DNA of 64,000 nt from NCBI RefSeq assembly GCF_000385215.1, contig NZ_ARQK01000054.1, positions 1 through 64,000 of the forward strand, in the 5' to 3' direction. The stretch comes from Thioalkalivibrio thiocyanoxidans ARh2. GTDB lineage: Bacteria; Pseudomonadota; Gammaproteobacteria; Ectothiorhodospirales; Ectothiorhodospiraceae. A model generated the notes under the pieces. That model was not told the origin of the DNA and searched no databases. It was given only the letters and a program-made list of their open reading frames with translations. This document shows, in pieces, positions 2,117 to 2,516 of the stretch. Position 1 is the first letter of the stretch. Each line of letters starts with the position of its first letter. The position numbers were made by a program, and so were the translations under genes.

Positions 2117-2157
2117 TCCATAGAAAAGGGCCCCCTCGTGGGGCCCTTTTCTATGGA
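2117..2157 (+). terminator. perfect 18-bp palindromic terminator after tRNA-Gln
   Basis: An uninterrupted 18-bp stem (2117-2134 with 2140-2157, loop CTCGT) starts directly after the tRNA CCA. It carries an A run on the left and a T run on the right, so it can work in both orientations. Its core (GGGCCCC-CTCGT-GGGGCCC) is repeated at 2355-2373 as part of the duplicated element. Confidence 0.85.
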
Positions 2158-2290
2158 TATTTGAGCGAGTCCAGGGTTCGAACCTGGAAGGTTCGGCGGA
2201 GCGCAGCGAAGCACTGCACGCGCAGCGCGCGTGCAGCCCCGCAGGGGTGAGGCGGCGTAGCCGCCGAATCATCCTGGTCCCCCCCAGCCA
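2128..2290 (+). repeat. tRNA-Gln-derived palindromic repeat, copy 1
   Basis: This 163-base unit consists of the terminator core, a short spacer (TATGGATATTTGAGCGAG), a T-arm-like hairpin CCAGG-GTTCGAA-CCTGG (2171-2187), about 85 bases of stacked short hairpins, and a second copy of the 3' end of tRNA-Gln (TCCTGG, C run, AGCCA; 2272-2290). The hairpin block holds CTGCACGCG/CGCGTGCAG, CCCC-GCA-GGGG and GGCGGC-GTA-GCCGCC, bounded by TTCGGCGG and its complement CCGCCGAA. It lacks an acceptor 5' strand, a D arm and an anticodon arm, so it is not a tRNA gene. Confidence 0.85.
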
Positions 2291-2354
2291 TGGCTGTGTG
2301 CCCCTCGAAGGGGCTCACGGCCATTTGCTTTGGATTGGTCACGACTTTAGAGAA

Positions 2355-2516
2355 GGGCCCCCTCGTGGGGCCCTTTTCCATGGATATTTGAGCGAGCCCA
2401 GGGTTCGAACCTGGAAGGTTCGGCGAGGCGCAGCGAAGCACTGCACGCGCAGCGCGCGTGCAGCCCCGCAGGGGTGAGGCGGCGTAGCCGCCGAATCGTC
2501 CTGGTCCCCCCAGCCA
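2355..2516 (+). repeat. tRNA-Gln-derived palindromic repeat, copy 2
   Basis: A nearly identical second copy, 227 bases downstream of the first. T-arm-like hairpin at 2398-2414, hairpin block, then a tRNA 3'-end copy at 2499-2516. Visible differences from copy 1 are a handful of bases (for example one fewer C in the C run and GGCGAGGCGC for GGCGGAGCGC). The 64-base spacer 2291-2354 is not shared; it carries its own hairpin, GCCCCTCGAAGGGGC, within a longer imperfect stem. Confidence 0.85.

Follow-up and report, generated by a model that had tools for sequence, protein, structure and literature searches.

Divergent members of the RtT RNA family behind a tRNA-Gln(CUG) gene of Thioalkalivibrio thiocyanoxidans

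What are the two repeats that follow the tRNA-Gln(CUG) gene of Thioalkalivibrio thiocyanoxidans ARh2, and how are they related to the tRNA whose sequence they carry? We analyzed a 64,000-nt window (contig NZ_ARQK01000054.1, positions 1-64,000, forward strand), to which the coordinates below refer unless another locus is named. The original prediction, made from the letters of the window, was of tandem repeats built on the 3′ end of tRNA-Gln. This description was borne out: two 164-nt units (2121-2284 and 2348-2511, spacing 227 nt), identical at 158 of 164 positions, lie behind an intact tRNA gene. The prediction left unnamed the family to which the arrangement belongs, which is that of the RtT RNAs (Rfam RF00391), already known from the E. 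coli tyrT operon; the role, structure and spread of these RNAs are thinly described in the literature that we consulted for comparison. That both units are diverged members of this family is nearly certain, and we consider it very likely that they represent a structured non-coding RNA that is appended to tRNA genes, is duplicated there, would be processed and may spread by way of T-arm sequence.

Anatomy and family membership of the two units

In each unit, a terminator-like hairpin, whose stem joins an A-tract to a T-tract, comes first. The tRNA T-arm follows in inverted form, then GGTTCG and the palindromic core, and last comes a sequence close to the 3′ end of the tRNA. The features are listed here.

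2043-2116, + strand: intact tRNA-Gln(CUG), host of the repeats (ARAGORN; Rfam tRNA model, 61.4 bits)
2089-2105, + strand: T-arm of tRNA-Gln(CUG)
2116-2158, + strand: terminator-like hairpin in the interval from the tRNA to the first unit (inverted repeat I3; perfect 19-bp arms, loop CTCGT, T-tract inside the stem)
2171-2187, + strand: inverted T-arm copy of copy 1, CCAGGGTTCGAACCTGG (comparison of both strands with the tRNA T-arm)
2171-2177, + strand: 5′ strand of the closing helix P0 of copy 1 (family-wide pairing of P0 with the tail of the same unit)
2180-2194, + strand: hairpin Pa of copy 1 (GAACCT/AGGTTC)
2190-2270, + strand: RtT-like core of copy 1, with GGTTCG (Rfam RF00391 match; fold)
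2214-2236, 2237-2247 and 2251-2265, + strand: core helices P2, P3 (CCCCGCAGGGG) and P4 of copy 1 (fold)
2271-2290, + strand: tail of copy 1, a near copy of the tRNA 3′ end (ATCCTGGT, seven C, AGCCA; from sequence)
2290-2324, + strand: spacer hairpin between units 1 and 2 (from sequence; a similar spacer is present at congener loci L030-L033)
2348-2385, + strand: imperfect repeat of the 2116-2158 hairpin (D1 among the direct and I11 among the inverted repeats)
2398-2414, + strand: inverted T-arm copy and P0 5′ strand of copy 2, with Pa at 2407-2421
2417-2497, + strand: RtT-like core of copy 2, with P2 at 2441-2463, P3 at 2464-2474 and P4 at 2478-2492 (Rfam RF00391 match)
2498-2516, + strand: tail of copy 2, a near copy of the tRNA 3′ end (from sequence)

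The tails had been described as the 3′ end of the tRNA with its CCA. They are near copies but not exact ones: the tRNA end has five C, copy 1 has seven (two extra) and copy 2 has six (one extra), and the extra C give each tail two mismatches over 13 nt. The predicted T-arm-like hairpin, CCAGGGTTCGAACCTGG, does derive from the T-arm, but as an inverted copy, since it matches the reverse complement of the tRNA T-arm at 16 of 17 positions and the direct strand at 12 of 17. The hairpin at 2116-2158, a feature absent from the original prediction, looks like an intrinsic terminator; it is not among the predictions of a terminator scan, presumably because the T-tract is part of the stem. A promoter search of 1950-2760 gave no sigma-70-like candidate. 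The rpsI gene, encoding ribosomal protein S9, lies 39 nt upstream of the tRNA, and a gene for a metallo-beta-lactamase-fold protein starts downstream at 2752. The four nearest genes encode ribosomal proteins L13 and S9, the metallo-beta-lactamase-fold protein and an FAD/4Fe-4S protein, and there is no integrase among them.

How firmly can these units be placed in the RtT family? Both match the RF00391 model over its full length (1-130 of 130), copy 1 at 2155-2286 with 27.8 bits and copy 2 at 2382-2515 with 21.3 bits, scores that lie below the gathering cut-off of 45 bits. Both lie behind a tRNA, end in a copy of its 3′ end and are repeated in tandem as whole units, as is seen in many RtT members, although not all. 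The landmarks of the family core are GGUUCG, a CCCG(N)AGGG hairpin and GAGUAAUCC; in the window, GGTTCG and CCCCGCAGGGG are present and the last landmark reads GAATCATCC in copy 1 and GAATCGTCC in copy 2. Judged by base complementarity, P0 could form between 2171-2177 and 2271-2277 (one G-U) and between 2398-2404 and 2498-2504 (two G-U).

Stronger matches occur elsewhere in the same genome, where three exceed the cut-off, one at tRNA-Gln(UUG) (60.9 bits) and two at tRNA-Ser(CGA) (55.1 and 50.4 bits). A unit behind tRNA-Gln(CUG) itself exceeds the cut-off in 11 congeners (63.2, 60.7, 58.7, 58.5, 52.7, 52.3, 51.3, 50.7, 50.0, 46.0 and 45.3 bits). Two clear kinds of unit are found at this locus in congeners, others being intermediate: type B units carry GATGAGAAC or a near form and, further on, GAGTAATCC, and type A units carry GGTTCGAAC and, further on, GAATCATCC. 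Both window units are type A. As the type-A units of seven congeners also score below the cut-off (24.3-38.5 bits), the window units belong to a divergent branch of the family. Matches of Rfam microRNA families near the hairpins fell below their own cut-offs, and we took them to be chance matches to long hairpins.

The E. coli tyrT rtT (RttR) locus has the same plan of tRNA, spacer, inverted strand, core and tRNA tail, repeated; at this E. coli locus, the inverted T-arm strand pairs with the tail, the landmarks are GGTTCG, CCCG(N)AGGG and GA(G/A)T..TCC, and unit number varies. A 175-bp variable tandem repeat of Salmonella is called rtT RNA in one report (PMC2658671). However, the tRNA at the E. 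coli locus is tRNA-Tyr, and the window units, behind tRNA-Gln(CUG), fall below the Rfam cut-off, have a degenerate P1 and an alternative long hairpin and carry extra C in their tails. A terminator-like hairpin separates tRNA and unit in the window but was found in none of 14 Tyr intervals in a scripted scan. RtT units behind tRNA-Pro in E. coli, E. albertii and Citrobacter resemble the window in having a tRNA, a terminator hairpin, an inverted T-arm strand, a core and a tRNA tail (with a partial further unit as well in E. albertii), but their core landmarks are nearer the Rfam consensus; those of E. coli are annotated in RefSeq as RtT sRNA.

REP/BIME elements are also short, palindromic, repeated and intergenic. 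Two papers describe some BIME-based attenuator candidates as rtT-like (PMC2965389) and place rttR on a list of REP-bearing elements (PMC12306157). Unlike these elements, the window units are coupled to tRNA genes and include sequence copied from the end of the host tRNA itself. Nor is the exact block dispersed in the genome, as a general palindrome that merely landed here would be; of its 17 matches at E ≤ 10, all but the two window copies have E values of 0.2 or more.

The core fold and its tRNA-specific frame

We assessed the structure of the family without alignment, using swaps of tails or helix partners and shuffles of unit interiors. For P0, the set comprised 163 units, 75 of them tail-matched (at most one tail mismatch, no N, core of at most 112 nt) and 88 pattern units from 80 of the 116 stretches listed; no duplicates were removed between the two subsets, and neither includes the window copies, which have two tail mismatches. 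In 72 of the 163 units, the tail of the unit itself allows all seven P0 pairs, compared with 179 of 3260 swaps that brought in the tail of a unit of different T-stem. At least six pairs can form in 123 of 163 units, compared with 1434 of 3260 swaps, and the other 40 units have five or fewer. Extension of P0 into the acceptor strand is variable; just 5 of the 163 units pair at 7 or 8 of the 8 outer positions, so that CCA and the 3′ strand of the acceptor are mostly left unpaired.

When the 123 best units were folded without constraint, P0 (5 or more pairs) was present in the minimum-energy structure of 74 and absent from that of 49. Exactly five inner hairpins were found in 50 of the 74 P0-forming units; after each interior was shuffled once, P0 formed in 58 and five hairpins in none. 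Read from the folds, the five are Pa (AACC/GGUU), P1, P2, P3 (CCC-G(N)A-GGG) and P4. Across 86 distinct units, core helices formed more pairs with their own partner strand than with a foreign one (P4, 4.42 versus 3.39 of 5; P1, 5.15 versus 4.23 of 6; P2, 5.49 versus 4.64 of 6). The AACC of Pa lies within 30 nt upstream in only 61 of these 86 units, and a GRTNNGAA motif is present in only 47.

In the Rfam structure line, as we interpret it, UUCG pairs with CGAA of P3. Because the P3 loop is not GAA in 29 of 62 alignment rows (GAA in 32, GCA in 21, GGA in 6, GTA in 2 and unparsed in 1), about half of the rows cannot form the full UUCG/CGAA helix. Our comparison suggests that the inner structure of RtT differs from that in Rfam. 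According to the CaCoFold paper (PMC7657543), RtT has an additional base pair indicative of a tandem-GA motif. RNAalifold recovered only P3 and P4 (7 pairs) from the 62-row core alignment; in our view, it misses P1 and P2 because these vary in length and are misaligned by MAFFT.

Do the window units adopt this fold? P1 is degenerate in both copies. The predicted helix bounded by TTCGGCGG/CCGCCGAA is indeed part of the minimum-energy fold, a long hairpin of -65.7 kcal/mol in copy 1 and -62.8 kcal/mol in copy 2 from which P0 is absent. However, the family-wide junction fold, which when enforced contains P0, is only about 4.6 kcal/mol weaker in both copies (-61.1 and -58.2 kcal/mol). The interval from the tRNA through the first unit (2043-2340) folds far better than shuffled sequence (z = -9.70; 0 of 200 shuffles as good), and copy 1 alone with its tail (2170-2296) gives a weaker signal (z = -3.27; 1 of 200).

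If the frame is copied from the tRNA, is the core inherited with it? Within Thioalkalivibrio, core identity is 0.813 at the same tRNA (n = 207) and 0.733 at different tRNAs (n = 131), so that over this distance the core is passed on in place. Between genera, identity is 0.674 at the same tRNA (n = 295 pairs) and 0.685 at different tRNAs (n = 2110). Within one genome, cores at two different Ser tRNAs are up to 0.91-0.93 alike, and 12 of 14 same-genome core pairs at different tRNAs are at 0.65-0.78. The nearest neighbor was in another genome and at another tRNA for 11 of 18 cores, in the core's own genome for 5 and in another genome at the same tRNA for 2. These comparisons suggest that the frame follows the tRNA and that, over long distances, the core does not; the between-genus identities are near saturation, and old vertical descent would be compatible with them.

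The near identity of the two window copies had been taken to imply recent duplication or homogenization. This is plausible but not strongly shown, since type-A cores, at loci many of which were chosen for an RtT match and so do not give population rates, are 0.952-1.0 identical within a genome (6 pairs) and on average 0.917 identical between genomes (72 pairs, range 0.855-0.988), with 7 of the 72 at 0.952 or above.

RtT cores at many tRNAs and within T-loops

RtT matches at E ≤ 0.1 are present in 27 of 30 Thioalkalivibrio genomes, 23 of which have a match over the cut-off, and the hosts in this genus are two Gln tRNAs (CUG and UUG), Ser tRNAs of four anticodons and Arg(ACG). A single genome, G297, accounts for 17 matches. 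In searches of the class and phylum, whose stricter filters lose weak matches, RF00391 had matches at E ≤ 1e-4 in 46 of the 274 class genomes and in 43 of the 398 phylum genomes; 22 of the latter 43 belong to one family outside the class of the window. No plasmid matched the region by distant blastn.

Since the RF00391 model contains a tRNA end, we also used a DNA pattern made of the core landmarks without the tRNA end; as the pattern fixes AATCC, tRNAs with another T-arm are under-represented. It found at least 131 matches in at least 116 stretches of named genomes. Among the 131 matches listed, 108 have a tRNA at most 700 nt upstream on the same strand (23 anticodons), which again argues against a palindrome spread at unrelated sites. 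The exact last 13 bases of that tRNA, of which the first two (CC) are fixed by the pattern, end 84 of the 131. These exact-tail units, among the matches listed, cover 20 anticodons of tRNAs for Gln, Ser, Tyr, Arg, Pro, Glu, Lys, Thr, Val, Asp and Asn. As to the other tRNA-linked matches listed, two have one tail mismatch, six have two and 16 of the 108 have three or more. The 23 listed matches that lack an upstream tRNA, 8 of which lie less than 300 nt from the start of their stretch, comprise contig ends, tRNA remnants, T-loop-interrupted tRNAs and some that were left unclassified. A list of tail matches held 117 entries, of which 24 with three mismatches, mostly shifted duplicates or coreless, were excluded from later sets; 23 loci gave no tail match, being contig ends or decayed or T-loop copies, or having no tRNA called.

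Some units have unusual surroundings. On two other contigs of the T. thiocyanoxidans genome (C41, locus L026, 1420-1640; C45, locus L023, 1420-1620), RtT units lie behind tRNA 3′ fragments that ARAGORN does not call; these are possibly the far ends of genomic islands that use these tRNAs. At locus L172 (208-426), a tRNA-Gln body is followed by a core and a tRNA-Ser-like tail, which looks like a chimera of two tRNA loci.

Cores are also found inside tRNAs. To detect such cases, we removed each core in silico, joined the flanks and sought a tRNA with its T-loop across the joint. By this approach, 19 of 280 cores, from loci many of which were chosen for an RtT match, so that the fraction is not a population rate, interrupt the T-loop of an otherwise complete tRNA (Gln(UUG), Gly(CCC), Ser(GCU, CGA, UGA), Glu(UUC) or Val(GAC)). 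The regular expression that finds cores misses some, as L101 and L204 also look T-loop-interrupted and lie outside the 19; at L101, the ARAGORN call gives the look of an interrupted tRNA-Gln(UUG). The original prediction placed the block at the T-loop position, and this holds; in relatives, the core directly follows T-loop position 58 with an edge that is ambiguous by one A (58/59). All 19 are followed downstream by an intact tRNA of matching kind whose CCA is encoded, at 34-88 nt in 16 cases and at 303, 502 and 518 nt in the others; none of the 19 interrupted tRNAs has CCA at its own 3′ end. Ten of the 19 are from Thioalkalivibrio (eight Gln(UUG) and two Ser(UGA)) and are not independent. One lies in the genome studied here (tRNA-Gln(UUG); contig C47, locus L020, 1177-1330), and genome G297 has three interrupted tRNAs in a row, followed by the intact gene.

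Individual loci vary in detail. At six Thioalkalivibrio loci, L020 among them, one to three core-bearing copies of tRNA-Gln(UUG) precede the intact tRNA-Gln(UUG), and at two more, with tRNA-Ser, an interrupted tRNA precedes an intact one. The same order is seen at nine further loci, with Gln, Gly, Ser, Glu and Val tRNAs. At three of the nine, the interrupted tRNA's tail is followed directly by its inverted complement, which gives a hairpin where the discriminator and CCA would be. Another of the nine, in Lacimicrobium alkaliphilum, is a tRNA-Glu/tRNA-Ala array in which the core matches four times, and at least one match interrupts a tRNA-Glu T-loop.

The interrupted copies could have arisen by insertion, or by deletion between two GGTTCGA sequences, one in the tRNA and one in its unit, and the constant presence of an intact copy nearby may simply mean that the tRNA is needed. 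We found no paper on T-loop-interrupted RtT copies in literature searches that did not query this topic by name and did not cover most subscription journals.

Expression and origin of the units

Unit number varies between close relatives. At the tRNA-Pro locus of three E. coli strains, MC1061 has no full unit but a remnant, strain 1500 has one unit and RIVM_C019217 has two; at congener loci, the number ranges from none to several, and the last copies are often truncated. The MC1061 remnant (locus L314, 560-640) stops abruptly in a palindrome, which we take to be REP-like, and this repeat may have replaced the rest of the unit.

If the units are made as RNA, how would they be transcribed? Of 184 distinct intervals from a tRNA to its unit (at loci many of which were chosen for an RtT match, so again not a population rate), 71 contain a terminator-like hairpin; after one shuffle of each interval, none does. 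Since such a hairpin precedes the unit at many loci and, by its look, also in the window, units would be made mainly by read-through. Relatives are expressed: published reports describe an RtT sRNA that is upregulated at 10°C in Thioalkalivibrio, its locus unstated (PMC8092127), northern signals for RtT homologues in Actinobacillus and, in E. coli, the release of rtT as tRNAs are processed and its modulation of the stringent response (PMC4986893).

We propose the following model. A hairpin core of ~80 nt (P1-P4, with edges UUCGA and AAUCC) is framed by parts of the host tRNA, with an inverted T-arm copy upstream and a direct copy of the 3′ part of the tRNA, from T-loop to CCA, downstream. In many units, the inverted strand can pair with the tail to form the tRNA-specific P0 and with GGUU to form Pa, placing the core in a junction that replaces the T-loop. 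Several units can follow one another in tandem, the first tail being that of the tRNA itself, and their number differs between related strains, which is what recombination between the repeats would produce. Read-through from the tRNA past the terminator-like hairpin, followed by tRNA 3′-end processing at each CCA-type tail, would yield a small RNA, as reported for E. coli rtT, and this RNA may act in the starvation or cold response. As the core edges GGTTCGA/AATCC are common to many tRNAs, recombination or insertion could seat the core at different ones. At the locus studied here, the processed-RNA mechanism is likely but unproven. The extra C in the window tails mean that tRNA-type 3′ processing may not act there, and the upstream terminator-like hairpin argues against abundant transcription of the units.

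Could the core itself move? Active mobility is possible. One version, compatible with the model above and held here as a tentative alternative that has a real though minor chance of being right, is that a mobile core inserts into the T-loop at GGTTCGA^AATCC, with the tandem units as a form that leaves the tRNA intact and the interrupted tRNAs as the other form. It would explain why this is the point at which 19 of 280 cores interrupt otherwise complete Gln, Gly, Ser, Glu and Val tRNAs, each with the same intact CCA-bearing tRNA 34-518 nt downstream, why between-genus core identity does not follow tRNA identity and why exact-tail units occur at 20 anticodons among the matches listed. However, 10 of the 19 interruptions come from one genus and are not independent, deletion between the GGTTCGA of tRNA and unit could also create them, and within Thioalkalivibrio, cores are more alike at the same tRNA. 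Furthermore, the E. coli strain without a full unit keeps a remnant, which points to loss and not insertion, no clean pair of empty and filled sites was found, and no transposase or other mobilizer is known, the four nearest genes having been inspected.

It is also conceivable, although we find it doubtful, that the units are debris, that is, non-functional tandem duplications of a tRNA 3′ end and spacer that stay similar through recombination or recent origin and give no RNA that matters. The terminator-like hairpin ahead of the units, the extra C in the window tails, the frequent truncation of last copies and a unit number that varies from none to several in congeners and E. coli strains would all fit. 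Debris would not be expected to keep its core helices through sequence change across genera or to have a closing helix that tracks the tRNA sequence, and relatives in the family are expressed.

At the speculative end, and in our view unlikely to hold as a whole, the RtT core could be a site-specific, tRNA-agnostic insertion module that targets the T-loop after position 58. It would have two host-compatible forms, one behind an intact tRNA in a duplicated 3′ part and one inside the T-loop of a second, otherwise complete tRNA before the intact copy, and the transcribed core, in the frame of the tRNA that it had entered and processed like a tRNA end, would give a small RNA that reports on the tRNA operon.

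An improbable alternative is a cis-acting folding switch, in which the inverted T-arm copy would pair with the T-arm of the tRNA and delay or block maturation while the tail copy would be a rival partner for that strand. In the lowest-energy fold of 2043-2340, 2089-2105 does pair with 2171-2187 across the terminator-like hairpin. However, that hairpin would usually stop transcription before the inverted copy is made, the tRNA folds first in a transcript, and the tail is kept as the pairing partner in many units of the family. Least probable is the suggestion in the original prediction of an old integration event, with the repeats as attachment-site scars left by elements that used this tRNA: tandem copies of a tRNA 3′ end are typical of attachment sites, and the units behind uncalled tRNA remnants elsewhere in this genome are what the far end of an island would look like, but the four nearest genes include no integrase, housekeeping ribosomal genes lie directly upstream, and the copies hold a structured core that is found at many tRNAs in many genera.

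We therefore return to diverged RtT units appended to a tRNA gene as the preferred reading of the locus. For the window itself, the result is modest, as it adds two divergent members to a known family. More broadly, our comparison separates the RtT core from its tRNA-specific frame. The origin of the family could be tested by comparing filled and empty sites, and its function could be tested in E. coli, where unit number varies between strains. The part most worth following is the set of T-loop-interrupted tRNAs with an intact copy downstream, in five amino-acid identities, as these interrupted copies may help explain how the RtT family spreads.
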